From: Anaerolineae bacterium
GTDB lineage: Bacteria; Chloroflexota; Anaerolineae; B4-G1; DUEL01
DNA: 64,000 nucleotides
Reading direction: 5' to 3'
Assembly: GCA_025060135.1 (NCBI GenBank)
Contig: JANXCY010000009.1
Span: 23,433 to 87,432 of the forward strand
Shown here: positions 40,899 through 58,166 of the stretch, in pieces
Numbering within the stretch: position 1 is the first letter of the stretch
Layout of the letters: every line of letters starts with the position of its first letter
Program-made: the position numbers and the translations under genes
The notes under the pieces: model-generated
What the model was told of the DNA's origin: nothing
The model's input: only the letters and a program-made list of their open reading frames with translations
Database searches by the model: none

Positions 40899-41843
40899 CT
40901 ATCCTCCGCCGAATATCCTGCCAACGCCGGACCGAAGGACGATAATGACACCCGGTCCCAGCAGGACGATCAACAGGGCAGGGAAAATCAGGAAGACGAT
41001 GGGGATAATCATCTTGATCGGCGCCTGGCGGGCCAGTTCCTCCGCCCGCTGCCGTCGGCGCACCCGCATCTGGTCGGACTGAATTCGGAGGACCTTCGCG
41101 ATACTGACGCCCAACTGGTCAGCCTGAATCAGCGCGGCGACAAAACTGGAGACCTCTCGAACGTCCATGGTATCGGCCATGTTCCGCAGCGCTTCCCGTC
41201 GGAGTCTCCCCAACTGGATTTCCTGAAGGACCCGGGCAAACGCGCGGCTCAATTCGTTGTCCCACTTTTCCACCACTTTGGCCATCGCCGCATCAAAGGA
41301 GAGACCGGCCTCCACGCAAATGGTGAGCAGGTCCAGCGCGTCGGGCAGAGATTTGAGAATTTCTTGTTGACGCCGGCGGATCCGGGAGCCCAGCCACGAG
41401 CCGGGCAGGTAGAAGCCCAGCCCGAATGCCGCGCCAATCAGCGCTATCTTCTGGATGGTCGGGATACTGGCAGGGCCCAACACTAGAAAAGCGCCGCCGC
41501 CCAGCAGAATGCACAGGATGTAGCGAATCGCTACAAACTCCCCCGGCCCGATTTTCTGGGAAAGGCCCGCCAGTTCCAGGTTGCGGCGAGTGCGCTGGAG
41601 GGTCTGGGCGGGGGTCATCCGGCTGATCAGGCGGCTGACCGCCTGGAGCAGAGGACGAATGACCCGTTCGGTGAAAGGCAGGGAGAGTTCCAGTTCCTCC
41701 AGGGTCGCCGTGCGGCCCATTGCGCCCAGTTCCACCAGGCGGGCCTGCAGGGCGTCTTCGCCGCGCGGGGCGCGGCGTCCGATCAGCACCAGGGCCAGCC
41801 CGGCTACCATCAGCAAGCCCACCAGAATCAGCACCATCCCCAT
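40899..41843 (-). CDS. tadC: Tad pilus membrane platform protein TadC (T2SF family)
   Basis: A 314-aa inner-membrane protein of the type II secretion F family. It has one N-terminal membrane segment, a T2SF domain with GLSFDAAMAKVVEKWDNELSRAFARVLQEI, and two C-terminal hydrophobic segments (IIPIVFLIFPALLIVLLGPGVI). In Tad systems TadB and TadC form the platform on which the CpaF ATPase acts. Downstream of tadB with a 60-nt gap. Confidence 0.92.
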   Translation of the reverse strand: MGMVLILVGLLMVAGLALVLIGRRAPRGEDALQARLVELGAMGRTATLEELELSLPFTERVIRPLLQAVSRLISRMTPAQTLQRTRRNLELAGLSQKIGPGEFVAIRYILCILLGGGAFLVLGPASIPTIQKIALIGAAFGLGFYLPGSWLGSRIRRRQQEILKSLPDALDLLTICVEAGLSFDAAMAKVVEKWDNELSRAFARVLQEIQLGRLRREALRNMADTMDVREVSSFVAALIQADQLGVSIAKVLRIQSDQMRVRRRQRAEELARQAPIKMIIPIVFLIFPALLIVLLGPGVIIVLRSGVGRIFGGG

Positions 41844-41903: not shown

Positions 41904-42857
41904 CTATACCTCAATATCCGCGATTTTGCGCATCGTGAAGAAACCAATGGTCATGGTAATCCCTGCCACCACCAGCATGATCCGACCACAGGGGTCTTGA
42001 AACAGCGGGCCCATAAAACCGGGGTTAATCATGTACACAATGCCCGCCACACCAACGGGCAGCAGGCTGACCACGTAGCCGGAATAGCGGGCCTGGGCGG
42101 TCAGAGCCCGGATTTCTCCTTTGATGCGCACCCGTTCCCGGATGGTGAAACTGATCGTATCCAGGACCTCGGCCAGATTACCACCGACTTCCTGTTGAAT
42201 CTTGATGGCCGTAACGGTCATATCCAGGTCGTCGGAGGGAACACGACGGAGCAGGTTATCCAGAGCCCGATCCAGCGGAAGGCCCAACTGGGCCTCTTTC
42301 ACCACCCGGTCAAACTCCTCAGAGGCGGGAGGGTTCATCTCCCTGGCAACGACCTCCATGGCCTGAAGGACACTGTACCCAGCGCGGAGGGAATTGACCA
42401 TCATGTTAATGATATCCCCCAACTGGTCATTGAAGGCTTTCAGCCGTTTACCCTGGAGGTAGGCCACGTACCAGCGGGGAGCGAAGAAACCCAGAATCAG
42501 TCCGACCAGAGAGAGATACGGATCGCGACGCCACAGGAAAATCAGGACCGGAAAGAGGATCATACAGATCACTGTGGCGGCAATAAACTCTCCGGCGGTC
42601 AGTTTCAGGTTAGCGCGCGCCAGTTGGGTGCGCAGGTTGCGGGCCAGGCCCCGCTCTGCCAGGGCCCGATCCAGGCGCTCCCCCAACGGCGAGAACCGGG
42701 TGCCAGGTCCTCTCTCTTTTTGCTTTCGCTGCACCCCCAGCGTATACCGGTCCAGCCGTTCGCTGACCTCATCCCTCCGCCCACGACCGCTCAGGAGCAG
42801 ATAGACGAAAGCGCTCGCCAGCAACCCGATCCCCAGCATCAGCAACAGATTCTCCAT
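41904..42857 (-). CDS. tadB: Tad pilus membrane platform protein TadB (T2SF family)
   Basis: A 317-aa T2SF protein, start MENLLLMLGIGLLASAFVYLLL (ATG 42857 with GAGGAGGAGG upstream). The cytoplasmic domain has QLGDIINMMVNSLRAGYSVLQAMEVV and PLDRALDNLLRRVPSDDLDM, and C-terminal helices follow. It partners with TadC. It lies between cpaF and tadC, the standard Tad order. Confidence 0.92.
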   Translation of the reverse strand: MENLLLMLGIGLLASAFVYLLLSGRGRRDEVSERLDRYTLGVQRKQKERGPGTRFSPLGERLDRALAERGLARNLRTQLARANLKLTAGEFIAATVICMILFPVLIFLWRRDPYLSLVGLILGFFAPRWYVAYLQGKRLKAFNDQLGDIINMMVNSLRAGYSVLQAMEVVAREMNPPASEEFDRVVKEAQLGLPLDRALDNLLRRVPSDDLDMTVTAIKIQQEVGGNLAEVLDTISFTIRERVRIKGEIRALTAQARYSGYVVSLLPVGVAGIVYMINPGFMGPLFQDPCGRIMLVVAGITMTIGFFTMRKIADIEV

Positions 42858-42981
42858 CCCCTCCTCCTCAAGGCGCGCGGACCCGTTGATGGGGACGACC
42901 AAGGGGCCACCCCAACCCCAAAAACATCATCCTTTCGGCACGATGCCCGCCAGTCCCATCCCCAATTTCCCGGCGGTTCCT

Positions 42982-44364
42982 TTACCGGCGCATCCGTTCC
43001 CCGATGCCAAAGATGGTCGGCGGCAGATGGATGCCTGCCTGCTCAATTTTATCCATGAACTTCGGACGAATTCCGGTGGGGCGCAGCCGACCGATCACCT
43101 TCCCATTCTCGTAGCCCGCGATCTCAAACTTGAAAATCTCCGACATGGTGATGACATCGCCTTCCATCCCTTCCACCGAGGAGATGCTCACCACTTTCCG
43201 GGAACCATCCCGCATCCGCTCCAACTGGACAATCACATCCAGCGCGCTGGCGATCTGCTCCCGAATGGCCCGGTGGGGCAGGTCCATCCCGGCCATCAGG
43301 ATCATGTTCTCCAGGCGGGCCAGCGCGTCCCGCGGGGAGTTCGCGTGAATGGTAGTCATAGAGCCCTCATGGCCGGTGTTCATCGCCTGGAGCATATCAA
43401 ACGCCTCTGCGCCCCGGCACTCCCCCACGATAATCCGGTCGGGCCGCATCCGCAGGCTGTTGATGACCAGGTCGCGGATGGTTACCTCCCCCCGGCCCTC
43501 AATGTTCGGCGGGCGGGATTCCAGCGTAACCACATGCTCTTGCTGCAACTGCAACTCCGCCGCGTTCTCAATCGTGATGATCCGCTCGTCGTTGGGGATG
43601 TAGGCGGAAAGGATGTTCAGGAACGTCGTCTTTCCAGTACCAGTACCGCCGGAAACAACAATGTTCAACTTCGCCTGCACGCAGGCTTTCAGGAACTCCA
43701 TCGCCTCCGGGGTAATGGAGCCCAGTTCAATCAGTTTCTCAGCGGTCAACGGAATCTTGAAAAACTTCCGGATGGTCAGCACCGGGCCGATGAGGGAGAG
43801 GGGCGGGATAATGGCGTTGACCCGCGAACCATCAGGCAGGCGGGCGTCCTGATAGGGGACGCTTTCGTCAATCCGTCGGCCCAGAGGAGCGATGATGCGT
43901 TCTATGATGCGCATCAGGTGCTCCTCCGATTCAAAGGAAGCGTTGGTGCGTTCAATTTTGCCGAACCGCTCCACGTAGATGTTTTTGGGGCCATTCACCA
44001 TAATCTCGGTAACGGTGGGGTCGGCCAGGAACGGCTCCAGCGGCCCCAGCCCCAAAATCTCCGCCACGATCTGCTCAAAGAGCCGCTCCCGCTCTGCCCG
44101 ACTGAGAACGATCCGCTCTTCGGCCAGGATGTTCTCAAACATCTCTCGGATGGTGCGCCGGACCTCCTCCTGTCGGCTGACATCCATCGTGGGGTCCAGT
44201 TCGTCAATCAGTTTGTTCTGGATACGGGTTTTGAGGTCCCGGTACGTATCCCGCAGGGAGGAGGGCGCGGGGGTGGGACGGAATGTTGGCGCACTGGGCC
44301 CCGATGGCCCGGTCGGTGCCGTTGGTGGTTGGGTTCCTTTCTCAATCCGTCTTAACAGCGACAT
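42982..44364 (-). CDS. cpaF: Tad/CpaF pilus assembly ATPase
   Basis: A 460-aa hexameric secretion ATPase of the TadA/CpaF family that powers pilus extension and retraction. After a disordered Pro/Thr-rich N-terminus comes the helical domain ([21 protein letters not shown]), Walker [13 protein letters not shown] (~238-249), the Asp box [11 protein letters not shown], the His box ([21 protein letters not shown]) and the arginine-containing [27 protein letters not shown] precedes the ATG. Confidence 0.95.
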
Positions 44365-44461: not shown

Positions 44462-45760
44462 TCAAATCCCCAGGGCTCGACCCAGAAGACGGCGGCTGAC
44501 TTCCACGGAGACGGCTTCTTCTTCCTCTTCGGTTTTCCGGAGTTCACTCAGCCGTTCCAGGACCCCGGCGGCCAGTTGGACGAAAGCCTGACCGATGGGT
44601 TTGCTGGCTTCCTCGGTGGCGATGGGGAGTCCTCGATTGGCGGCGATGATGCCCGCCCGTTCATCGTACGGGATGTGAGCCAGGGCAGGGATCAGGGCCC
44701 GTTCAATCTGGTCCAGCCGCAGGCCGGTCTTCCGGTCAGCCTGATTGATGACCAGGCCGAGTTTCTCGCGGGGGTAGCCCAGCCGGTCCGCCAAGTCCAG
44801 AAAGTGGCGGGCGTCCTTGATGTCCGGGATCAGTGGTGTGATGACCAGCAGGATCAGGTCGGCCCGGTCCATAAAGGTCAGCGTCAGCTCGTTGAGCAGA
44901 CTCCAGGTATCCACCACCACCAAGTCAAACTCCCGCAGGAGGCCATCCAGGATGATCCCGATACGGCGGCTGCTCTCAGTCATTCCGCCATCGGCGCCGA
45001 TGACCGCATCGGCGGCTTCGGGGTGGGGCGGAGCCAGCAGGGCTTTGATACCCGAAGCATGGGGAGTCAGGACGCTGGTCAGCAGGTCGCTATCCAGTTC
45101 CTCCACCCGCACGGCCAGATCGGCGATGGTGCGGGCGGGCTGCAAGTTCAGCATCACTCCCACATCCCCGAACTGGAAACTGCCGTCCATAATGGCCACC
45201 TTCTGGCTCATACCCAGGCGGGTCTGGAGGGCCACGGCCAGGTTGACAGCGATCGTGGTGCAGCCGGCTCCGCCTTTTGGCGAAAAGACCACAATCAGTT
45301 GCCCGTGGCGGACGGCGGGGCGACCGACCGCGCCGGGAGCGGTAACAGTGGGAGCCGGCGCGATGCGTGCCGCCTGCACCTGCCCGATTTCGTAGACCCG
45401 GCGGATGGTGGCCATCAACTCATCCCCGCTGGGAGGCTTGACCAGGAAATCCCGCGCGCCAGCAGCCATCGCCCGGCGCATATAGCCCGTCTCCCCCTGG
45501 ACGGAGAGGATGATAATCTGGGTGGTGGGCACCTCCCGCGCGATCTGTTCGGTGGCAGTAATCCCGTCCATCCCGGGCAGGTTGATGTCCATGATCACAA
45601 CGTGGGGGACCAGTTCCCGCGCCATCTGGACCCCTTCCTCCCCGGTGGCGGCCGTACCTACAACCTCTATATCCGGGGCGAAGGAGAGCAGTTTGCGCAG
45701 GTTCTCCCGGGTTTCGGCAATATCATCTACGATGAGGACACGGATTTTTTCGGCAGGCAC
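44462..45760 (-). CDS. cpaE: CpaE/TadZ-like receiver-ATPase of the Tad pilus
   Basis: A 432-aa localisation factor. An N-terminal receiver domain (VLIVDDIAETRENLRKLL, phospho-acceptor in VIMDINLPGMDG) is followed by a linker and a MinD/ParA ATPase with the deviant Walker A VVFSPKGGAGCTTIAVNLA (~157-175). GTG 45760 was chosen because TGGAGGAAAC precedes it; upstream in-frame sequence lies in cpaB. A receiver that keeps its aspartate suggests control by a histidine kinase, and a DegS/DegU-type pair is encoded ~11 kb away. Confidence 0.93.
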   Translation of the reverse strand: MPAEKIRVLIVDDIAETRENLRKLLSFAPDIEVVGTAATGEEGVQMARELVPHVVIMDINLPGMDGITATEQIAREVPTTQIIILSVQGETGYMRRAMAAGARDFLVKPPSGDELMATIRRVYEIGQVQAARIAPAPTVTAPGAVGRPAVRHGQLIVVFSPKGGAGCTTIAVNLAVALQTRLGMSQKVAIMDGSFQFGDVGVMLNLQPARTIADLAVRVEELDSDLLTSVLTPHASGIKALLAPPHPEAADAVIGADGGMTESSRRIGIILDGLLREFDLVVVDTWSLLNELTLTFMDRADLILLVITPLIPDIKDARHFLDLADRLGYPREKLGLVINQADRKTGLRLDQIERALIPALAHIPYDERAGIIAANRGLPIATEEASKPIGQAFVQLAAGVLERLSELRKTEEEEEAVSVEVSRRLLGRALGI

Positions 45761-45800
45761 GTTTCCTCCAGAGACGGCTCTACAACGGCTCTCGGTGAAC

Positions 45801-46871
45801 CTACTCGGTGGGCCCTCCCCCTGCCGGAGCGCTGAGGCTGATCGCTTCTTCCAGCGGGTTCGTCTCGGGCGCGATGACCGCGTAGGGCAATTTCGGCGGG
45901 ACGGTGAAGTTGTAGCGGACGATGATGTAATCCTGGGAGACCGTTTCGGTGGAGACCAGTTCCCTGTCCTCCGGATTGCGCAGGGCAAGGGTGATGTCCG
46001 CCTTCATTTCCACTAGCGCCTTGAGGACCAGGGCTTCCTGAGGGTCGACCATCAGGATAACAGCCTGAACGTTCATCATTACAGGTGTGGGGGTCGGCTC
46101 GGCAGCGGTGCCCGAGACGGGTTGTCCCCCTTCTGTGGTCGGAGTGGGCTGAGGGACCGCCATCGGGACCGGTTCCTGGTACGTGCCCACGCCCAGCACC
46201 TCCGCGTTTTGAATGGTCACCTGGGCTACATAGCGGGCCTGAGTGCTCCCCGTCGAGGGGTATACCATAATGACCTGGCCGGTGGGCAGAAGTTCTACCC
46301 GTCCATAGACTCCCTGGCACAGTTGCCCTTCAGCGCACTGGAAGGCGGCCCACTGGTTGGGCAGGAGACTCTGGAAATCCTGATCCAATTCCTGGATCGT
46401 CCACGAGGCCAGTACATCCACACGGTCGCCGGGCTGGATAGACCAGGCCACTGCTCCCAGGCGGTCCACCGGGATGGCGACGGCGCGCTTGCCTTTCTTA
46501 ACCCGGAGAGCCGCTGGGGAGCCCATGGCCCCCAGGGCTTCCGAGCTGGAGGCCAGCATGCCCGGCATCAGGGGCATCCCCTGGGGAATATCCACCCGTG
46601 CGATATAGCCGATGACCTGGGCCGGGTCGGTAAAATAACTCGGCGGCAGGTAGGCGATCGGCCAGTCCAGCACCATCACCAGCTCAGGAGAGAGGGGCAT
46701 TCCCGGGGTCAGATTGTTCGCAGCGACCAGGATTTTCATCGTTTGGGGCACCTCGGTGGGAGCAGGGGTTTCCCCACCCCTTCGGGGGGGGCGCATCAGC
46801 AGCGCGCCGGCAATGAGCGCAACGCCGATGATTAAGAGGCCTACCAGAACCAGGGTCCGCCGGCTTGCCAT
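45801..46871 (-). CDS. cpaB: CpaB/RcpC pilus assembly protein
   Basis: A 356-aa protein with an N-terminal membrane helix (TLVLVGLLIIGVALIAGALLM). An SAF domain follows (ILVAANNLTPGMPLSPELVMVLDWP, IPQGMPLMPGML), then the CpaB/RcpC domain (KRAVAIPVDRLGAVAWSIQPGDRVDVL). In diderms CpaB works with the secretin. No secretin gene is visible here, and its retention suggests a wall-linked role. It has its own promoter at 47000-47027. Confidence 0.93.
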   Translation of the reverse strand: MASRRTLVLVGLLIIGVALIAGALLMRPPRRGGETPAPTEVPQTMKILVAANNLTPGMPLSPELVMVLDWPIAYLPPSYFTDPAQVIGYIARVDIPQGMPLMPGMLASSSEALGAMGSPAALRVKKGKRAVAIPVDRLGAVAWSIQPGDRVDVLASWTIQELDQDFQSLLPNQWAAFQCAEGQLCQGVYGRVELLPTGQVIMVYPSTGSTQARYVAQVTIQNAEVLGVGTYQEPVPMAVPQPTPTTEGGQPVSGTAAEPTPTPVMMNVQAVILMVDPQEALVLKALVEMKADITLALRNPEDRELVSTETVSQDYIIVRYNFTVPPKLPYAVIAPETNPLEEAISLSAPAGGGPTE

Positions 46872-47293: not shown

Positions 47294-49459
47294 TTATTCT
47301 ACCAGCCGCAGGAAGATGCGCTCGTAGAGTTCGTCGAAGATCTGATTCAGTTTCTCCGGGCGGTCGGCGTTCCGGTGGACTCCACCCGTGATGTTCGCTA
47401 CCGTCTCCATCAACTCAAAATCGGCCGAGTCCCCCAGGGTGATGGTGTAGATCACGATGTTGTTGTTGCGGGCCTGCTCGGCGTAGTAGAGGGTGCACTC
47501 TTTCCCCCGGCGTTCCTCTTCCCGGGAGGGCACACTCAGGCCGTATTTCTGAATGAGGTTGTACGTGTAACAGGTGCTGTTGGGGACCTGATTGGGCCGG
47601 CCGTCGGTCATCAAAATCATGATGTGGGCCGCACCGGGCCGACCATACTGGCCAGATCGGGTGCTCAGAACGTCAATCCCTTTTAAAATCCCATCGGCGA
47701 TATTGGTAGACCCAGCGGCCTGGGTGGCATTCAGCGCGGCAACGACCGTATTGGTGATGACCGAAGGGTTACAATTTGCGACACCCCGCCGACGCAGGCA
47801 TTCCAGTGGGGAGTCAATCGTGGCGCTATCGGAGTAGGAGACGTACCCAATCTGGTCATACCGGTAATCCAGCATCCCTACGAACCGCTTGGCGGCCTCA
47901 ATGGCGGCCCGGATGGGCTGCTCGTCGTCGTAGATGTCGTCCTTGCGGCGGTCCGGGTTGGGGCCGCTATTGCAGTTGGGAGAGTAGGCGCAGGTAGACT
48001 GCCCACAGCCGCCGGGATAACCGCCGAAGCGAGCATCGCAGGGGTTGCAGGCCCAATCTGTGCGTCCATTGGAGAATACGCCCGTTCGTTCGATGTTAGT
48101 ATTCACGGAAGTTGAAGGGTCGTTGGTGATCACGATGCGGTCCAGAGCGAAGCCAGCCCCGCCCGCCCAGATGCGGAGGGTGTGCTGGGAACCGGCGGTC
48201 AAGTAGATAGGCGTGTCATTCAGCCGACGCCATCTCCAGAAATTGGGATCAGCACCATTATAGCTGACGCCTCGTGAAAATTCAGGTGTATAAGTGATGG
48301 GACTACTATTCACATTCCAGAAAATCCGGAGGTCCAGATTCTGAGGATGACGCCAGCTACTCTGAGCCTGACCGCGCACCCAGATGTAGTAGTTGCCGGT
48401 CCTCAGTACGGTGAAATCATAATCTACCCGGGGCGCTGGGAATGGGCCGCCGGGGACATCCATCTTGCAATAACACTGGGTGTATCCAGAGGCCGCGCAC
48501 TGGCCGTTGTTGACAACAGCATCCAGGCGGCAGGTAACGCCATAACCCGGGGAAAAGGTGGCCTGTGTCTCATGATCGGAATAGGGCATATGCATAATGT
48601 AAGCCCCTCGGCTATCCCGACCCGAGGCGCCGTCGCCCGCCTCCCGCTGCATCACCCAGTATGTGTAGTAGGGCACGTACAGATAACGGTTATATGGGTT
48701 GCTGGCCCGGGAGTACTCTTCCGCCTCGATATAATAGTAGTTATATTGCTGGCTACCCAGGGCATAGGTGAACACCGTGGTAGCGCCGCAGTGGGCAGGT
48801 GGACCGTTGGGCGGGCCGTTCCAGGGGAGAGGGTAAATCAGACCCCCCGGATACGGGATGCCTGATTGGGCCTGCCAGCATCCGTAGCAGAGAGTGTCAA
48901 ACTCCATAGAGCCGGAGCGGTCAAAGACGATGACGATATCCAGGTTTTTGATATTTTCGGCGGTGGCCGAGGCGCTGACCCAGAGAGAATCAAAGCCCAG
49001 GAAGCGCATGAAAATGACCGGCACCCGCTGTCTGACCCTTACCCGGATGCGGTCGGCTGTGTTGGGCTGCTGGGCGGGTGGCAGGCTCAGGTCCCGGAAA
49101 CTGGCGGTGTCCAGAATGATGATGGTGTCCGCCTGGTCCTCGGGAGGGCCCTGAACATGCGATCCATTGATCTCCAGACGGGTTCTCGGGTTTCCATCGT
49201 TATAACCGTTATCCCGTAGAAATTCCCGGGCCCGGGCATGGGCGGCGCTTTCCAGCGGGAGTTCCGGGGCCGCCGCCAGCGCAGCCGCATCCACCGCCCG
49301 TACGATGCGGACCCGTTCGCTATAATACACCCCCAGATCCACAGCCAGCCCCACAAAAGCCAGCAGGGTGAACACGCCCACCATCACCAGGATTATGCTC
49401 TGCCCGTGCTGGTTACCCCCCTCGCGAAAGCACCGGAACAGCCATTTCGGGCATCTCAT
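47294..49459 (-). CDS. TadG-like pilus protein: VWA domain interrupted by a carbohydrate-binding-like insertion
   Basis: A 721-aa surface protein. The N-terminus has the TadG/Flp-like hydrophobic segment GQSIILVMVGVFTLLAFVGLAVDLG. The VWA metal-binding motif is DRSGSM at ~180-186, but the rest of the VWA fold (EQPIRAAIEAAKRFVGML, VSYSDSATI, TDGRPNQVP) resumes only at ~515. Between lie a Tyr/Gly/Cys-rich stretch and a CBM6/35-like domain (YYIEAEEY...NYYIWVRGQ...HTLRIWAGGAGFALDRIVI). Cysteines are frequent in the insertion. ATG 49459 has AGGAGGT upstream. It probably acts as a tip or adhesive subunit. Confidence 0.85.
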   Translation of the reverse strand: MRCPKWLFRCFREGGNQHGQSIILVMVGVFTLLAFVGLAVDLGVYYSERVRIVRAVDAAALAAAPELPLESAAHARAREFLRDNGYNDGNPRTRLEINGSHVQGPPEDQADTIIILDTASFRDLSLPPAQQPNTADRIRVRVRQRVPVIFMRFLGFDSLWVSASATAENIKNLDIVIVFDRSGSMEFDTLCYGCWQAQSGIPYPGGLIYPLPWNGPPNGPPAHCGATTVFTYALGSQQYNYYYIEAEEYSRASNPYNRYLYVPYYTYWVMQREAGDGASGRDSRGAYIMHMPYSDHETQATFSPGYGVTCRLDAVVNNGQCAASGYTQCYCKMDVPGGPFPAPRVDYDFTVLRTGNYYIWVRGQAQSSWRHPQNLDLRIFWNVNSSPITYTPEFSRGVSYNGADPNFWRWRRLNDTPIYLTAGSQHTLRIWAGGAGFALDRIVITNDPSTSVNTNIERTGVFSNGRTDWACNPCDARFGGYPGGCGQSTCAYSPNCNSGPNPDRRKDDIYDDEQPIRAAIEAAKRFVGMLDYRYDQIGYVSYSDSATIDSPLECLRRRGVANCNPSVITNTVVAALNATQAAGSTNIADGILKGIDVLSTRSGQYGRPGAAHIMILMTDGRPNQVPNSTCYTYNLIQKYGLSVPSREEERRGKECTLYYAEQARNNNIVIYTITLGDSADFELMETVANITGGVHRNADRPEKLNQIFDELYERIFLRLVE

Positions 49460-49469
49460 TTTGCACCTC

Positions 49470-50111
49470 CTACTGACTTTGACGGGCATCTGAAACCACC
49501 CGCATCACAGAGCGGGAGTACAACTGCAAAACGCGCGGCAACCCCAGGGGCCGATAGTTCCACAACGTCCAGTGCGCGTAGAAGACTTCCACCACGACGA
49601 GCCGATTGTCCAGCGCTTCGTATCCAGCGGCCACCCGCTGCTGATTGATCGTGCGGGTCTCGTTCTCGTGACGGGCAAGGTCAATCTCTGCTACCCGGCT
49701 GTCTCCTACAGTGATAGGCCTTGTAATGATCGCGGTCCCCGAGATCACCGTCATCGTTCCCGTCAGGTATCGCGTGATGTCGCCCCGCGTCCCATCGGAT
49801 TGGATCGGAATATGCGTGATGATGATTCCGGTGTTGGGATCCGGCGGGGAAGCCCGGAAGAAGAGCACCTGCTGGTTGTTCAACGTCGTGTATCCGCCGC
49901 TGTTCAGCATCCAGCGGGCCGCGTCTTCATCGGTATACCGGGCCCGCGCGACAAACCGGACCCCTTCCCGGCAGGCAGTGGTAACCAGGAGGTAACTGCG
50001 CAGGGCCAGGGCAGTCTCCACCATCCCGATAATCAGCAGGATCAGGAACGGCAGAATAACCGCCAGTTCCACGATACTCTGTCCGCTCTGGCGCACCTTC
50101 TTACCGTTCAT
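49470..50111 (-). CDS. tadE: TadE-like minor pilin
   Basis: A 213-aa pseudopilin-like protein with N-terminal GQSIVELAVILPFLILLIIGMVETALALRSYL, the TadE motif with the conserved Glu. The extracytoplasmic part is beta-rich. ATG 50111 has AAAGGAG upstream; the longer ORF start is a read-in. It ends 10 nt before the VWA gene. Confidence 0.9.
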   Translation of the reverse strand: MNGKKVRQSGQSIVELAVILPFLILLIIGMVETALALRSYLLVTTACREGVRFVARARYTDEDAARWMLNSGGYTTLNNQQVLFFRASPPDPNTGIIITHIPIQSDGTRGDITRYLTGTMTVISGTAIITRPITVGDSRVAEIDLARHENETRTINQQRVAAGYEALDNRLVVVEVFYAHWTLWNYRPLGLPRVLQLYSRSVMRVVSDARQSQ

Positions 50112-50374
50112 TTCCGCTCCTTTCCCCCGATGCGGTGCTGCTCTCAGAGGGTATCGGAACAGGCTGAAAGACGCTGACTCTGGGCGCAGCGCAGGCTGGG
50201 AGCCAGCCTCCACAGACCTGGCGGCCTGTATGACATGCTTCAAAATTCCCAACGATGTAGGTCCTGGGGAAGAGACGCACGCTCAGCGAAGGGCCGCCTT
50301 CACTCCTCAACGCTCCTCCCGCCCGGTTTCGTGCAGGCACGGCGCGCACTTTCGCTCTCCCTGCGGCCATCCGC

Positions 50375-51004
50375 TCAGGGAAGGACCCTCCCATCCACTC
50401 CGCTAATCATCAGGGTGTGGACCTGGGTACCGGCGGTCGTGGTGATGGTCCACACCGGCGATGGGTCGGCCATACTGGTAGGCTTCAGCCGGGCGGTTAC
50501 CCCGGCGTTTTTGTAGCGGGCCAGGAAGTCCGCTCCCCCAGCGACCCACCAGGCCTTCAGCGCCTGAGGACTATCCACCAGCCAACGGTCTTCGGTGAAG
50601 ACGGGCAAAGGATAAGGAATAGGCATCTCCTGGAGGAGCCAGGCCTGCCCTGCCTCCACCACCACCACAGCCATCCGACCGGCCGCTGGAGCGTAATAGA
50701 GAACGGTCCAGATGCTCTGGGTTGGCCACCTCCCCCGGATCGGCTGCCACTGGGCGGAGAGAGAGGCAGGCCGCGCATCCGGTTGCCAGGCCCGGGCCAC
50801 TCCTCCGGCCGCGCGGAAGGCTTCCCGGGCCGTGGGCTCCAGCGGCAGGGGGATGAGCGGGCCCGCGGGGATCCGGCTCTCCTCCGGCCCCGCCGCTGGC
50901 CACATCAGGAGAATCGCCAGCCCCAGCGCGGCGATAAAGGCCAGCCCCCCTATCAGCCCCCATCGGCCTCCATCTCTCTTCGGCGCAGCGCGCGGAGGGC
51001 GCAT
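50375..51004 (-). CDS. Membrane-anchored protein, PepSY-like C-terminus
   Basis: A 209-aa protein with one N-terminal membrane segment (WGLIGGLAFIAALGLAILLM) and an extracytoplasmic region I cannot place in a family. The end (SPVWTITTTAGTQVHTLMISGVDGRVLP) resembles the strand-turn-strand of PepSY-type modules. Between a secreted protein and tadE, it likely belongs to the pilus surface unit. The start is followed closely by Arg/Lys, which fits an inside-positive orientation. Confidence 0.6.
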   Translation of the reverse strand: MRPPRAAPKRDGGRWGLIGGLAFIAALGLAILLMWPAAGPEESRIPAGPLIPLPLEPTAREAFRAAGGVARAWQPDARPASLSAQWQPIRGRWPTQSIWTVLYYAPAAGRMAVVVVEAGQAWLLQEMPIPYPLPVFTEDRWLVDSPQALKAWWVAGGADFLARYKNAGVTARLKPTSMADPSPVWTITTTAGTQVHTLMISGVDGRVLP

Positions 51005-51060: not shown

Positions 51061-52524
51061 TCAGCGGAAATTCCGCAGCACTACCGGCAGGTAGACCCGG
51101 GAGCATTTCTGATCCTCGTTGCCGTCATAGTAGGTCTCCCAATCAGTTACCTGCCCGCTGGCGTTCGGCACACCCTGGATGTACACCACATGCAGGGCCT
51201 CCCCGGACAGGAACGGTGCCACCGCCGGGCTGGCCGAATGCCGCGGGGCATTCAGCCCGAAGCGGCGAATTTCGCCCCACTCTATGGCCTCTTCAGCGTT
51301 CTCCGGCACCGTCAGCGCTTCGGTATAGTAGATGTTGTAATCCGGGTTGTCGGTCGTCCCGTCGTTGGCGTGCCAGACCACCACCGGCTTCCCGTCCGCC
51401 CGGAAGCCCACCGACGGGCGCAGGAAACGGATGTACTCCGCGACCGCGCCGGTGGAAGTATAGGGCCGGTCTGTGCCTTGAAACCCTCCTCCCAGTTCAT
51501 ACCAGTAGAATCTCCCGGTGGAGTCCTGAGGCCACTGGTCGCCGTTGTTCGTGGAGCGGATGTAGGCCAGGGTATACCTCTCACACTGTTCTTGAGCGGT
51601 AGAGCACCCCTCGTCTGTCCAGGCATTGTTCATATCCCACGCCACCAGCACGGTGCTGCTGAAAACAGCGATGGCCGGACTGTGGGGGGCATAACCCAGA
51701 TCTTGTTGCAACAGACGGGACGATGGGGCCCAACCGCTCGTCGTTCGGCGCCGGTAGAAGATGGAGTAGTAGCCATCTTCGCTGGTGGGCTCGGTTGCCC
51801 AGACCACGTGAACCGCGCCTCCGTTCCAGGCGATGGCGGGGAGGCGAGCGTTTTGATTCTCAGACACAGTTTCTGCGGGGATGTTCGGGCTCCGGTAATA
51901 AACAGTGCCCACGTCTTTTCCCTGCGAAAGGTCGCGCCGATAATAGGTATACGCGAAGTGGGGCTGCCCCGCGCCATCCAGCGCAACGTCCACCGCGCCG
52001 TAGCCTGGTTCACTTTGGGACCCTGATAAGTGGGTAGTATAAACAACGGTCTGGACAGGGCCGCACGTGCCCCCCAGAGGGCAGACCCGGTAGCGAACCG
52101 CCTGGGAAGTGAATTGATCGCACGGGCTCTGGGTGATGTAGGCGACAACAGCGGTGTAGGGATTGGTACCGGTAACCGCTACGGCGGCCCAGCGGGCGCA
52201 TTCGCTGCTGGTGCCCGTATGCACCGGTACCCGCGCGCTCCAGCCGCCGGTACGCTCCGAGGCCCAGCGCAGGTAGACGGAGCCCTTCATGGCTCCTCCG
52301 CCGTCCTGATATGCCTCCGACCAGGCAACGACAACCCGGTCTCCGTCCGGGCTGACGGCAATATCCGCGTAATAGGAGAAACGGTTCGGGCTTCCAGAGA
52401 GATTGGTGGCGATGTGCAGGAACGCGGCGCGTGGCGCGGCCAGCGCTCCGGAGAAGGCCAGGGCGCCCAGCATTCCGGCCAGCAGGGCCGCGATCCCTAA
52501 AAGGACCCGCTTTGAACGCGGCAT
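51061..52524 (-). CDS. Secreted beta-propeller-like (sialidase-type) protein with YLPVVLRN C-terminal tail
   Basis: A 487-aa exported protein. The signal segment is VLLGIAALLAGMLGALAFSGALA. The body contains repeated strands with Asp-box-like and 'VVAWSE/VHVVWATEP/VVVWHAND' motifs typical of sialidase-fold beta propellers. There is no clear catalytic Arg triad, so an enzymatic role is unsupported. The C-terminus KCSRVYLPVVLRNFR matches a tail I associate with secreted proteins of Anaerolineae and relatives. It sits in the pilus surface operon. Confidence 0.75.
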   Translation of the reverse strand: MPRSKRVLLGIAALLAGMLGALAFSGALAAPRAAFLHIATNLSGSPNRFSYYADIAVSPDGDRVVVAWSEAYQDGGGAMKGSVYLRWASERTGGWSARVPVHTGTSSECARWAAVAVTGTNPYTAVVAYITQSPCDQFTSQAVRYRVCPLGGTCGPVQTVVYTTHLSGSQSEPGYGAVDVALDGAGQPHFAYTYYRRDLSQGKDVGTVYYRSPNIPAETVSENQNARLPAIAWNGGAVHVVWATEPTSEDGYYSIFYRRRTTSGWAPSSRLLQQDLGYAPHSPAIAVFSSTVLVAWDMNNAWTDEGCSTAQEQCERYTLAYIRSTNNGDQWPQDSTGRFYWYELGGGFQGTDRPYTSTGAVAEYIRFLRPSVGFRADGKPVVVWHANDGTTDNPDYNIYYTEALTVPENAEEAIEWGEIRRFGLNAPRHSASPAVAPFLSGEALHVVYIQGVPNASGQVTDWETYYDGNEDQKCSRVYLPVVLRNFR

Positions 52525-52712: not shown

Positions 52713-55700
52713 TTAAGGTTGCAGCAGCAGGTCCACGCCGTAGTTCCGCTCGTCGGCGACGACGGTAACCGTGGCGGTACCCCACTGGAGTTGACCACTC
52801 ACCCATGTGGCGGCGTAGACGGTATAGGTGCCGGGCGGGATGTTATAGAAGTGGTAGGTGCCGTCGTGGATGGTGCGGGTGCGCAGGACCTGGCTGCCCT
52901 GTCTGTAGGCCCAGACGTTCACCCCGGTCAGGGGTTGAGGGACACCGCCGACCAGGGCGCGCACCAGCCCCCCGATGGAAGCAGTGCCCGGCACCGGGTC
53001 CGGAATCGGCCAGTAGGTGCAGACGCTGCAACTCAGGTCGTCCAAAAAGAAGAAGGTGCCGTAGTAGTCATTGTCGTGGGTGCCGTAGAAATAGACCTGG
53101 ATGTTCTGGCCGGCCAGGGCAGATACGTTCACCCCCCTGTTGGTGAAGTTCACATCAAAGCGCTGCCAGGTTTCGGTAACAACGCCCCCGTTCACGATGG
53201 CGACAGGTGCCGTAATAGGGCTTCCGTTGCTCTGACGCAACTGGACATAGAGGACATCGTCGGCGTCCGGGATGCCCCGGTAACTGCAATCGGTGAGACT
53301 GCCAGCCACAGCGTGCCATCCGCTCACCACCAGGTGGGTGAGCGTGTAGACGTTGGTGGGAACCTGGACGGTCTGGAAAAGATACGGGCTGTAGGATGCG
53401 CAGGTCGGATAGGAGCCCAGAGAGGCGTGGAGCCGCATGGAAAAGGCGCCCGAGCGCTGGAGGTAGCCGGTGTGCTGGTAAGCCCCGAGCCCTCCGGCGC
53501 TCCAGTAGGTGAAGATGCGCTGCGGGTTCCCCTCAAACCCACCCACCTGCAGGAGTTCGCTGCACTCTTGGAGGCCGGGCGGCTTGATCTCCCCTTCGTC
53601 CCACGGTGGCGGCTCCGGTGGGCGGCAGATCGCATCGGTGATCACATAGGTCACCCGGACCGGGACCCAGTCCAGATTGAAGGTTTTGGACGAGGAGGCC
53701 CCGTTGTGGGCCGACACCCGGACGCGGAAAGCGTTGTTGGCCAATTCGCTTACCGTCCAGGTTCGGCCCCAGGTGTCGTTGGGCCCACCCAGAACCGCCG
53801 TACGTTCGCTGGTGGAGAGGGTGCCATCCTGCTTCCTGGATGTCCAACTGGACCCGTTGTTCCAGGACAACTCGGCCCCCATAGAGCCGCTCCCCGCCGT
53901 GCTGTTGACCCACCAGTCCAGCCGAACCTCTATGCCCTGGATCGTGGCGGTGGTGGGGACAGAGAGGCTATAGTTGTAGAACTGATGGGTCTGAGTCGTA
54001 TTGGAGGATACCGAGACGCTGGCGGCTCCGCCACCGTCCGTATAGGCGTTGGTCGCGCTCGAAAAATTGCCATTATCGGTAGACGGGTTGAACCAGCCCG
54101 TGGTAATGGTCTGAGGGTAGAAACAACCCGCCGTAACGATCACGGACGTCAGGTTGTTCTCTTCGTTATCCTCCGCCACATAGTTAGTGGTATCCACCCG
54201 GGCGGAAATCCGGTACTGCCCCTCGGCCGGGAGCCAGAGTTGAGCCGTGATGACGGTGGATTCGCGCGGGCCGATGCCTGCCACCCACTGTTTGACCAGG
54301 CCCAGTTGCCCGGGGGCTGGCGGCGGCTGACTCAGCGCGGTGACGTAGAAATCCACGTCAAAGATTTCCGTGGTGAGGCCCGCGGTGGTGTTGGAAATCA
54401 CTGCCGTAACGGTAAAGATGTTCCGTACCGGGATGCGCGAGGGGAAATTCAGCGCCGCCACCATCATATCGGGCCGGACAGGGCGAACATACAGGTCGGC
54501 GGAGTAGGCAACCCGGGTGGCCGTGTTCCCGCAGGTACCGGAACCGGTGTGGCTTTCCAGCCGGTAATAGCCTGCGCTCCCCATGGGAATCTGGACCGGC
54601 AGGTCCAGGGCATCCCAGGTACTGGTATCCACGTTGATGCCGGTCATCAGGACGGCGGAGGAGATACCGCCAGTAACCGAAGTCCGGCACCAGAGGAGCC
54701 GGTGTGGATTCCCGGACGGGGGATGGTCGTACAGGCTGACGGAAATCCAGTCCAGCGGGAGGACAGAGTGGGTGGAGGCAACGATGTAGGGCCCGCTAAC
54801 AGTCCATTGTTTGGTTGCCGTATCGGTGGGCTCCGTGGTATCCCACTGCTGGTTGCCGTTGATGTCTATCCAGGCCCGCAGATTGGCGGTACCAGGCCGG
54901 TTGGCATAGACGGTGAGAACGGCGGTACCTGTAGAGTCGGTTTGAGCCTCGCCGTAGCCGGGGCCGGTGCCAGAGTAATCAAAGGAGCCGAAACTGGTGG
55001 AATAACTGACCCGGACATTGGGCAACACCTCTCCGGTATCCTGATCGGTAACCCGGACCGACACAGGATGGCCCCGCCCGGTGGGAAGTTGATTGGTAGC
55101 GGTGTCAAACTGGATGTCCACCCGGTAGCGGATGGGGCGAGGAGTAGGTGTGGGCGTGGTGGGAGTCGGAGTTACCGGAGCCTGGGTGGGGACAATGAAG
55201 GTGGGCGGCGGTCGGAAGGTCGGCGGGGGGATGTTGCCGAAGCCAACCTGGGTGCCCTCGTTTAGCATCGTAACATGCGATTCTACCCGGACGTACGGGG
55301 CAAAGGCCCGGAAGATCGGGTCCATCAATTCCACGTTGTGGACCACCCGGATCCGAATCGGGAGGCCAGGGAGGCTGGGGTGATCCAGTTGCTCCTGGGC
55401 GTCAAAGGCCGGGAAGCCCCAGACCTGGACGCCAAAGAAGCCCGGGGTACCCGAATACGCGTTGAAGTTGGCCGTGGTCAGCCCGATGGCGTTCGGGTTG
55501 ATCCGGAGGCCCACGGCCCGCTCCAGCGCGACCAATTTGATCATCGCTACCCGACGTCCGTTGTAGTTCTCCAGGGTCTCCGCGGCACTACAGCGGTTGC
55601 TCAGTTCGGTGTACCGGGTGGGGCGAGGGGTGATGTTGTTCCACCAGTTGGCCCACCAGGCGGCAGTAGCGTCCGAACCGGTACATGGGTCAAAGGGGTC

Positions 55701-55955
55701 GCAGTGCTCGCGACTCGCGGTCCCCTCCAGCTGGCACCCCTGAGGGGGCTGATACGTGATGGCCCAGCGGGCCGCCTCCCGGGCAGCGTGCTGGACTGCC
55801 AGGTACCCTTGAAGGATCAGGGCGCCTTCAATGATCAGAAAAATGATCAGCAGCAGCACCGGGAGGACAAGGGCAAACTCCACCATGGATTGTCCCCGGC
55901 TCCATCGCCAGGGCAATCGGCATCCGTTCCAGCGCGCATTCCTTACCTGTTCCAT
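52713..55955 (-). CDS. Giant TadE-fusion surface protein
   Basis: A 1080-aa protein whose N-terminus is a TadE pilin module (GQSMVEFALVLPVLLLIIFLIIEGALI, residues ~21-47). A ~200-residue pilin-like ectodomain follows, then a Pro/Thr linker (PTQAPVTPTPTTPTPTP, ~250-272). Next come an invasin/Big-like unit (FGEAQTDSTGTAVLTV type, ~275-370) and a further beta unit. A CARDB-like repeat follows (~490-610; VISNTTAGLTTEIFDV...YVAEDNEENNLTSVIV), then jelly-roll-like domains (TFFFLDDLSCSVC) and a carboxypeptidase-regulatory-like end (SIGGLVRALVGG...YHFYNIPPGTYTVYAAT). TadE proteins are usually 120-250 aa. ATG 55955 follows GGGAGGGGCAA. Confidence 0.85.
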   Translation of the reverse strand: MEQVRNARWNGCRLPWRWSRGQSMVEFALVLPVLLLIIFLIIEGALILQGYLAVQHAAREAARWAITYQPPQGCQLEGTASREHCDPFDPCTGSDATAAWWANWWNNITPRPTRYTELSNRCSAAETLENYNGRRVAMIKLVALERAVGLRINPNAIGLTTANFNAYSGTPGFFGVQVWGFPAFDAQEQLDHPSLPGLPIRIRVVHNVELMDPIFRAFAPYVRVESHVTMLNEGTQVGFGNIPPPTFRPPPTFIVPTQAPVTPTPTTPTPTPRPIRYRVDIQFDTATNQLPTGRGHPVSVRVTDQDTGEVLPNVRVSYSTSFGSFDYSGTGPGYGEAQTDSTGTAVLTVYANRPGTANLRAWIDINGNQQWDTTEPTDTATKQWTVSGPYIVASTHSVLPLDWISVSLYDHPPSGNPHRLLWCRTSVTGGISSAVLMTGINVDTSTWDALDLPVQIPMGSAGYYRLESHTGSGTCGNTATRVAYSADLYVRPVRPDMMVAALNFPSRIPVRNIFTVTAVISNTTAGLTTEIFDVDFYVTALSQPPPAPGQLGLVKQWVAGIGPRESTVITAQLWLPAEGQYRISARVDTTNYVAEDNEENNLTSVIVTAGCFYPQTITTGWFNPSTDNGNFSSATNAYTDGGGAASVSVSSNTTQTHQFYNYSLSVPTTATIQGIEVRLDWWVNSTAGSGSMGAELSWNNGSSWTSRKQDGTLSTSERTAVLGGPNDTWGRTWTVSELANNAFRVRVSAHNGASSSKTFNLDWVPVRVTYVITDAICRPPEPPPWDEGEIKPPGLQECSELLQVGGFEGNPQRIFTYWSAGGLGAYQHTGYLQRSGAFSMRLHASLGSYPTCASYSPYLFQTVQVPTNVYTLTHLVVSGWHAVAGSLTDCSYRGIPDADDVLYVQLRQSNGSPITAPVAIVNGGVVTETWQRFDVNFTNRGVNVSALAGQNIQVYFYGTHDNDYYGTFFFLDDLSCSVCTYWPIPDPVPGTASIGGLVRALVGGVPQPLTGVNVWAYRQGSQVLRTRTIHDGTYHFYNIPPGTYTVYAATWVSGQLQWGTATVTVVADERNYGVDLLLQP

Positions 55956-56257: not shown

Positions 56258-56285
56258 GAGTACTTTGGTCATAGTTTGGGAGTCA

Positions 56286-56315
56286 TTGGGCATCGTACGG
56301 AATTTGTGGTATAAT
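56286..56315 (+). promoter_or_regulatory. Promoter of the two-component pair
   Basis: Perfect TATAAT (56310-56315) with a weak TTGGGC 18 nt upstream. Transcription should start near 56322, which makes the upstream ATG at 56322 an unlikely translation start and supports the TTG at 56337. Confidence 0.6.
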
Positions 56316-56336
56316 GTTCAGATGAAAGGAGGGAGG

Positions 56337-57050
56337 TTGAGCAGGATTCGGGTACTGATTGTGGATGACCATCCGTTCTTCCGAGAGGGGCTGCGACAGG
56401 TACTGGCGGCGGAAAAAGACCTGGAGGTGGTGGGAGAGGCACCGGATGGAGTAGAAGCGGTAGCGCAGGTGGATCGGCTGCTTCCCCACGTGGTCATTAT
56501 GGATGTCAACCTGCCTCGCCTGAACGGTCTGGAAGCGACCCGCCGGATTAAAGATACCCATCCGGAGGTCCAAGTGGTTATCCTAACCGCCTACGATGAT
56601 GAGGAGCAAGTGTACCATGCTGTGCGGGCCGGAGCCTCGGCATACCACTCCAAAGACGTCAGTCCTCAGGAACTGGTGGCCACCATCCACCATATCTGCG
56701 CGGGCCGGTATGTCCTGCGTCAGACGGTGTTGACGGAGCGGGAACTGGGATGGTGGCTGCGGGAGCGATACCAGCAGTTCGGTGGGGAAGTCTTGACTGG
56801 CGAACGGTATCTGGCACCGTTATCGGCCCGCGAGATGGAAGTGTTGCGGTTAATGGTGGCCGGGTTGAGCAATAAGGAAATCGCCTACCGCCTGGGCATC
56901 AGTTACCAGACGGTGAAGAACCACGTAACAGCCATTCTGGAAAAACTGGGAGTAGCCGACCGGACTCAGGCGACCGTGTATGCGCTCCGGCATGGCTGGA
57001 TTCCCCTTCAATCTCTGGAGGCGGCGACCTCCCGAAGTAATGGCTCGTAG
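56337..57050 (+). CDS. NarL/DegU-type response regulator
   Basis: A 237-aa regulator. The receiver domain (VLIVDDHPFFREGLRQVL, phospho-acceptor in VIMDVNLPRLNG, residue ~56) is followed by a LuxR-type helix-turn-helix (LSAREMEVLRLMVAGLSNKEIAYRLGISYQTVKNH). TTG 56337 has AAGGAGGGAGG directly upstream; longer starts lie before the expected transcription start. The histidine kinase gene follows 66 nt later. Its promoter faces away from the pilus surface operon, which is a good candidate target. Confidence 0.9.
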   Translation: MSRIRVLIVDDHPFFREGLRQVLAAEKDLEVVGEAPDGVEAVAQVDRLLPHVVIMDVNLPRLNGLEATRRIKDTHPEVQVVILTAYDDEEQVYHAVRAGASAYHSKDVSPQELVATIHHICAGRYVLRQTVLTERELGWWLRERYQQFGGEVLTGERYLAPLSAREMEVLRLMVAGLSNKEIAYRLGISYQTVKNHVTAILEKLGVADRTQATVYALRHGWIPLQSLEAATSRSNGS

Positions 57051-57116
57051 AAGGAGTTAGGGAACAGCGAATCTTTCCCAACCCAGCGTCTATCACTCCC
57101 GAAGGAGGGATACGCG

Positions 57117-58166
57117 ATGTCCGAATCGGCTTCCTCATCGGCTCCACCGATGCAGACGTTTCTGGACGAATGCCGAAAGGAGTATACTCAGGTCCAGGCA
57201 GAACTCAAAGAGGTAGACATGCTGATCCAGCAGACGGCCAGCGAGGTGGAACGGCTGGCCCAGCGGAGCACCCATGCGGCGAACCGTCTTCAGCAAGTAG
57301 AACTCCACTTTGATACGATCCCCCGCCAGGACATTCGGGAAGCGTACCAGGCGCTGATGGAAACGCAGCAGCGCCTTTTCACGATGCGGGGGCAACTGGA
57401 GAAACTCCAATCTGATCAGCAACACCTGCAGCGATATGCCCGCCTCCTGCAGCGAATTCTGGAATCCTGGCAGGGGGGCACCGTTTCCCCGGGACCAGGA
57501 TCCACTCCGGAGGAGGGAGTCCCCCCGGTTGTGCGGGCGATTGAGGCCCAGGAGCGGGAGCGCCAGATTCTGGCCCGTCAGATGCACGACGGCCCGGCCC
57601 AGGCCCTGACCAATCTGGTCCTCCAGGCCGAAATCTGCGAGCGGCTGTTCTCGGTGGACCCCGAGCGGGCCCGTGCCGAACTGGCGAATCTGAAGTCGGC
57701 CGTGGTAGCGACGTTCCAGCGAGTGCGGAGTTTCATTGCGAACCTGCGCCCGATGATGCTGGATGACCTGGGCCTGGTGCCCACGCTCCGCCGTCACGTA
57801 GAAGACCTGGCCGAAGGAGGATTCAGGGTCCAATTGAGCATCACTGGTCGGGAGCGCCGATTCGCTTCTTACAAAGAAGTCACCATTTTCCGGGTGATTC
57901 AGGAACTGTTGATCAATGCGCGGGAAATCTCTTATGCCACGCGGGCTCAGGTGAGCGTGGACATCGGGGAAGACCGGGTGCGGGTATCGGTAGAGGATGA
58001 CGGGAGCGGGTTTGAGCCAGCGGAACTGGGAAAGGGTGGCGCCGTTGCAGAAAAGATGGGGCTGGAAACTCTCCGGGAACGGGTGGAGATGTTAGGAGGA
58101 CGGTTCCAGATAGAGAGCAGTCCCGGTCGGGGCACCCGAGCAATGTTTGAATTGCCTCTCCCCTGA
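57117..58166 (+). CDS. Soluble DegS-type sensor histidine kinase
   Basis: A 349-aa kinase without membrane segments. The first ~120 residues form a long coiled coil (VQAELKEVDMLIQQTASEVERLAQRS...). The HisKA_3 dimerisation domain has phospho-acceptor His in ILARQMHDGPAQALTNL (~156). The ATPase domain has the N-box QELLINAREI, G1 VEDDGSGF and GLETLRERVEMLGG. This matches the DegS layout. GGAGGG precedes the ATG. It should phosphorylate the regulator just upstream. Confidence 0.92.
   Translation: MSESASSSAPPMQTFLDECRKEYTQVQAELKEVDMLIQQTASEVERLAQRSTHAANRLQQVELHFDTIPRQDIREAYQALMETQQRLFTMRGQLEKLQSDQQHLQRYARLLQRILESWQGGTVSPGPGSTPEEGVPPVVRAIEAQERERQILARQMHDGPAQALTNLVLQAEICERLFSVDPERARAELANLKSAVVATFQRVRSFIANLRPMMLDDLGLVPTLRRHVEDLAEGGFRVQLSITGRERRFASYKEVTIFRVIQELLINAREISYATRAQVSVDIGEDRVRVSVEDDGSGFEPAELGKGGAVAEKMGLETLRERVEMLGGRFQIESSPGRGTRAMFELPLP

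Follow-up and report, generated by a model that had tools for sequence, protein, structure and literature searches.

The Anaerolineae are filamentous bacteria that are common in sludge and sediments. The published accounts of Tad/flp gene clusters in Anaerolineae and Chloroflexales describe the same machinery genes as found here, together with Flp, and report a tadEEG arrangement for the Chloroflexales (PMC4877987, PMC7332563). According to the account of the Anaerolineae cluster, it is transcribed and linked to cell aggregation, and the adhesive subunit behind the aggregation appears to go unnamed there (PMC4877987). In the Kil system of Myxococcus xanthus the homologues of TadE, TadF and TadG (KilL, KilM and KilN) have been proposed to reside at the pilus tip (PMC12075869), and in Caulobacter the TadG orthologue CpaL, which possesses a vWA domain, has been placed at the tip, together with CpaJ and CpaK, in a model (PMC12607857). 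The large modular subunit of these published tips is TadG/KilN, not TadE (PMC12075869, PMC12607857). PilB and PilC of Streptococcus sanguinis are modular type IV pilins (PMC8179133, PMC9934059), and a survey of modular pilins of the N_methyl type singled out an 860-residue case for its number of domains (PMC8179133).

The DNA analyzed here, called the window, is a stretch of 64,000 nucleotides from an Anaerolineae bacterium (genome G000); all coordinates are window positions. It contains a Tad locus in which CpaB, TadZ/CpaE, CpaF/TadA, TadB, TadC, TadE and TadG occur together. The genes follow each other in the order of the first ten lines below, which also give the basis of each assignment, and are flanked by a divergent regulatory pair.

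52713 to 55955, minus strand: long TadE fusion of 1080 aa, best read as a minor pilin (Pfam, reading frames of relatives, AlphaFold2 model)
51061 to 52524, minus strand: secreted sialidase/beta-propeller-like protein of 487 aa, ending in VYLPVVLRNFR (profile match, synteny)
50375 to 51004, minus strand: conserved protein of 209 aa, with a single hydrophobic segment at its N terminus (synteny)
49470 to 50252, minus strand: short TadE minor pilin (Pfam)
47294 to 49489, minus strand: TadG-type minor pilin with Tad and Tad_C domains, a GH115_C-like insert and a vWA domain with DRSGS (MIDAS-like) (Pfam, sequence)
45801 to 46871, minus strand: CpaB/RcpC (Pfam)
44462 to 45988, minus strand: TadZ/CpaE of the response regulator-ParA type (Pfam)
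42982 to 44364, minus strand: CpaF/TadA ATPase (Pfam)
41904 to 42902, minus strand: TadB, T2SSF (Pfam)
40899 to 41843, minus strand: TadC, T2SSF (Pfam)
56265 to 57050, plus strand: LuxR-type response regulator, divergent, a neighbour conserved in the class (synteny)
57117 to 58166, plus strand: DegS-like histidine kinase (synteny)

This order was kept wholly or partly in most of the first 20 related loci, the sialidase-like gene being missing or unrecognised in some. The leading part (long TadE, sialidase-like gene, 209-aa gene, TadE or TadG) recurred in most of 20 more distant loci, where relatives of the regulatory pair at 56265-58166 (response regulator and histidine kinase) usually lie just in front. 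Given its GH115_C-like insert and its vWA domain with DRSGS, the TadG-type pilin represents a second potential adhesive module in the locus. A profile search related the 487-aa protein to sialidase structures (best E 8.7e-5); it lacks a Pfam match for IPR008707 and its profile is that of sialidase propellers, which does not fit a tip adhesin of the PilC/PilY1 type. For the 209-aa protein, whose gene shows one of the most constant linkages to the locus throughout the class, we found no Pfam family and no PDB match below E 0.5.

The counterpart of the sialidase-like gene in G021 (L074, 4014-6842, plus strand) also encodes domains similar to residues 274-500 of the long TadE, a fusion that hints at domain exchange between the two genes. 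Several apparently multi-domain proteins, including the one encoded at 51061-52524 (minus strand), end in the motif [VI]YLP[LV]V[LMI][RK]. The pattern matched 10 times in the genome (contigs C50, C51, C56, C58, C60, C67, C98 and C144) against 0 times in a reversed control, and 9 of the 10 matches lie 10-11 residues before the stop. It ends the gene adjoining the long TadE in many related loci and occurs in some other Chloroflexota (24 matches in G070, 12 in G071). The motif may serve as a tag for sorting or processing that has yet to be described; a search for a family or paper on it found none. On contig C56 (L064, 378-1433 and 1375-2115, minus strand) a gene with a sortase domain overlaps the end of the only prepilin peptidase gene.

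The long TadE gene is a single open frame on the minus strand, with its ATG at 55955, preceded by GGGAGGGGCAA, and its stop at 52713. An earlier reading, made from the letters alone (the sequence-only reading), had placed it at exactly these coordinates, without giving the strand. In five congeners the gene is likewise a single frame, 69-82% identical along its whole length, and in a genome from a different family the identity is 46%; named metagenome-assembled genomes with the labels Anaerolineae, Thermoflexales and Chloroflexi also have it. That assembly or annotation joined two genes would agree with the situation in the more distant genome G059 (locus L082), where one open frame covers TadE to CARDB and another the C-terminal part, a state that may reflect a split gene or a frameshift. 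Because the frame is uninterrupted in the five congeners and also in further families, all independently assembled, we rejected the assembly error that the earlier reading had named as its possible refutation and give an artefact practically no chance. The long TadE is a real, single gene of 1080 residues. Its parts are as follows.

55755 to 55895, minus strand: prepilin site G/QSMVE (slash at the processing site) and TadE helix, residues 21-67 (Pfam, model, alignment)
55263 to 55574, minus strand: alpha/beta pilin head domain, residues 128-231 (model; 46-50% identity between families)
55131 to 55256, minus strand: disordered Pro/Thr linker, residues 234-275 (pLDDT <50 at 234-239 and 252-272; sequence)
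54798 to 55127, minus strand: beta domain 1, Big-like, residues 277-386 (model; weak Big_1)
54486 to 54788, minus strand: beta domain 2, no Pfam name, residues 390-490 (model; conserved in alignment A1)
54126 to 54473, minus strand: CARDB domain, residues 495-610 (Pfam; 15 of 15 orthologues; PDB sequence matches 2kl6 and 3idu)
53628 to 54119, minus strand: replaceable module or slot, residues 613-776 (19-27% identity and large indels between families, most flanking segments having ~40-56%)
53004 to 53594, minus strand: C-terminal jelly-roll, conserved and similar to carbohydrate-binding modules, residues 788-984 (model; Foldseek)
52716 to 52982, minus strand: CnaB/carboxypeptidase-regulatory-like end domain, residues 992-1080 (Pfam, here below cut-off; orthologues; model)

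The base of the protein is that of a TadE-type pilin. Pfam family PF07811 (TadE) matches residues 21-63 with 54.0 bits against a curated cut-off of 22.9, and the prepilin motif reads GQSMVEF, the Glu at +5 being invariant in 15 aligned sequences and in every site listed. The genome contains a single A24 prepilin peptidase gene, on contig C56. An AlphaFold2 model (18 sequences, single chain; mean pLDDT 77, pTM 0.45) has one N-terminal helix at residues 17-67; a prediction without the TadE helix at the start, which the earlier reading had named as a possible refutation, was thus not obtained. TadE proteins in general have 120-250 residues, as the earlier reading had said, but within the class TadE frames of 600-2357 aa recur. 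The length of 1080 aa, well away from the usual short chain, does not exclude membership because size is a matter of custom and not a homology criterion. The protein differs from the TadG/KilN/CpaL tip subunits in that it has PF07811 and lacks both PF13400 and a vWA domain.

In the model, the helix is followed by the alpha/beta head (to residue 231), a disordered linker (residues ~234-272) and six beta domains that extend to the end; the earlier description of a TadE helix, a Pro/Thr linker and several adhesion-type beta domains was accurate, the number being six. With a global pTM of only 0.45, the overall shape of the arm is not readable from this model. The predicted CARDB-like domain was confirmed by Pfam (residues 495-604, 47.8 bits against 22.7). 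The other two family names suggested by the sequence-only reading held in part: the carboxypeptidase-regulatory-like domain falls short of its cut-off of 32.3 bits in the window's protein (25.3 bits) and passes it in orthologue L071 (35.6 bits), and the Big-like domain is sub-threshold here (Big_1, 16.7 bits) and reaches E<=0.01 in 8 of 15 orthologues, below the cut-off in those checked. TadE, CARDB and CarboxypepD_reg were matched by all 15 aligned orthologues at E<=0.01.

A Foldseek search with the whole 1080-aa model returned only unspecific strings of beta-sandwiches (complement, macroglobulins, TM ~0.1) and was discarded; the jelly-roll was therefore modelled alone, and its pLDDT of 89.5 bears out the jelly-roll named earlier. 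Most of its best Foldseek matches were carbohydrate-binding modules or further carbohydrate-binding or adhesin domains, among them an alginate-binding module (TM 0.59), CBM4, CBM22, CBM30 and a gingipain adhesin; no solved structure matching it by sequence was found. Given these fold matches, it is plausible that this cap binds sugar, although with a best TM of ~0.6 the modelled likeness is no proof of sugar binding. A pilin module is here followed by domains that are not pilus-specific (CARDB; the CBM-like jelly-roll), which is the organization of a modular pilin. The analysis supports the earlier proposal that a pilin of a Tad locus bears a long multidomain arm of the adhesion type, the adhesive role itself being predicted.

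The arm is unevenly conserved. When families are compared, ~40-60% identity is seen in most segments that precede residue ~495 or lie beyond ~766 (lower at residues 91-135 and 901-945), and residues 631-765 show 19-27% identity with large insertions or deletions. In an all-against-all comparison the slot types had no detectable similarity to one another and did not track relatedness: G009, of the window's own family, has closely related flanks (score ratio ~0.5 and 0.7) and a slot unrelated to that of the window, and G024, of another family, has more distant flanks yet a related slot (ratio 0.33). Slots or extra modules elsewhere match DUF1349, GH43_C2, GH115_C, PA14 and GLEYA. As judged from these alignments, the arm consists of a conserved stalk and a conserved end cap (the CBM-like jelly-roll plus the CnaB-like domain) with a replaceable module between them. 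Such a frame with one replaceable module is a natural swap series, in which one can ask whether a single cassette sets the binding specificity of the pilus.

A profile of the long TadE family recovered long TadE frames throughout the class, one class of the Chloroflexota. Complete frames of 1069-2356 aa with the TadE motif were found in nearly 30 loci of six families, with conserved synteny, and other families of the class have versions of 700-830 aa; the search proposed earlier for the same TadE-plus-CARDB architecture in other Chloroflexota was thus successful. By a hand count among the matches listed from a phylum sample (roughly the best 150), frames of at least 500 aa made up about half within the class against ~3 of 124 outside it, a contrast that is only indicative. 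In congeners a second TadE fusion of ~620-670 aa was observed that shares the CnaB-like end domain (G002:C22:313777, G004:C35:26305, G005:C345:3685, G006:C89:282); the window's genome has two TadE genes only.

The sequence-only reading had regarded the long TadE as the main surface subunit, which would mean that the pilus shaft is built from 1080-aa TadE fusions. The operon in the window indeed has no Flp gene, and the locus begins with the long TadE. However, a 52-aa Flp-type pilin is encoded away from the locus (G000:C57:5491); it scores below the Pfam cut-off (27.5 against 32.2 bits), has the typical segment GQGLAEYGLIL and is similar by BLAST to the Flp proteins of L082, L159 and L160. The genome thus has its major pilin off-locus, recognised by a clear motif and a sub-cut-off score, and Flp matches were found in 54 of the 60 relatives, so that the idea of a genome without Flp, in which TadE would form the shaft, was rejected. 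Flp directly precedes the long TadE in L082 and L160, and in L159 it heads the operon that contains the long TadE. Given this separate Flp and its position in relatives, the main-subunit claim is not supported and a shaft of TadE fusions is extremely unlikely; the locus has three pilins of the TadE/TadG type, and the long TadE, as one of them, is best understood as a minor pilin. Searches of the genome found neither a secretin nor an N_methyl pilin above the cut-off, which makes another type IV pilus or a secretin-based system an unlikely user of the long TadE.

We consider it probable that the only type IV filament detected in this cell, the Tad/Flp pilus, includes the long TadE as a giant minor pilin whose arm sits at the tip. 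The tip position, for which we rely on analogy with the published tips, is likely. Judging from the motif, the prepilin peptidase would cut after Gly21 and expose the TadE helix. By homology to those tips, this helix may form a bundle with the helices of the other two minor pilins, the short TadE and TadG-vWA, and so a complex that starts the Flp filament; the three candidate tip-complex genes are present. The flexible Pro/Thr linker, visible in the anatomy of the protein, could then allow the six beta domains to reach out from the tip as an arm. Since one module of the arm is exchanged between lineages, with stalk and CBM-like cap conserved, pili of related species probably differ in the sugars or surfaces that they bind. 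From conserved linkage one may guess that the sialidase-like secreted neighbour is a non-pilin tip partner and that the adjacent two-component pair regulates the operon.

Two other positions have to be weighed against the tip. Many copies of the long TadE could decorate the shaft of the Flp filament with arms held sideways on their linkers, an arrangement that the long disordered linker permits and that the authors of PMC8179133 allow for modular pilins; considering that the locus has a TadE-TadE-TadG set, which elsewhere is modelled as one tip complex (PMC12075869, PMC12607857), we regard it as unlikely. The pilin helix could also stay in the membrane and the protein act outside the filament as a wall-spanning or surface-anchored adhesin, for which its arm is long enough to be considered and to which the lack of a secretin in the genome would offer a direct path from membrane to wall. 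Processed TadE-type proteins normally enter pilus assembly, and here the G/xxxxE processing site is conserved and the operon is shared with Tad assembly genes, which makes this location very unlikely.

Extended from the window to the class, the tip reading becomes tentative. Giant TadE tip adhesins of ~1070-2360 aa with an invariant base, stalk and cap, an exchangeable cassette and a sialidase-like tip partner may be a general feature of the Anaerolineae, which we hold to be possible rather than probable. If true, they would form the Tad counterpart of the PilY1/minor-pilin tip, with the large arm on TadE rather than on TadG.

A search of the open-access literature, which was not exhaustive, returned nothing relevant on TadE with CARDB or on long TadE proteins in Chloroflexota. 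As a principle, modular pilins and customised Tad tips have already been published; the giant form based on TadE, its class-wide distribution and the layout of scaffold plus cassette appear to be undescribed. The cluster accounts for Anaerolineae and Chloroflexales appear not to mention the size or domain content of TadE (PMC4877987, PMC7332563), and the long TadE family provides a concrete candidate for the adhesive subunit of Anaerolineae Tad/Flp pili. It resembles the Kil tips in that Tad minor pilins carry extra domains, variable ones giving target specificity there (PMC12075869), but the large modular subunit of Kil is KilN/TadG and here the largest arm is on TadE; moreover, beta-sandwich and CBM-like domains make up the arm, conserved parts enclose a replaceable slot, and predation is not implied. 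With CpaL it shares the combination of a Tad minor pilin and an adhesive or mechanosensing module (PMC12607857), although the counterpart of CpaL is the TadG-vWA gene at 47294-49489 and not the long TadE. The likeness to PilB and PilC lies in an adhesive or lectin module grafted on a pilin module, located at the tip of a filament of a monoderm. These two belong to the N_methyl class (IPR012902), the domain used in the published survey, whereas the protein described here is TadE-type and has many modules, with up to 2356 aa in relatives. The family thereby extends modular pilins to the TadE type, at sizes larger than the 860-residue case (PMC8179133).
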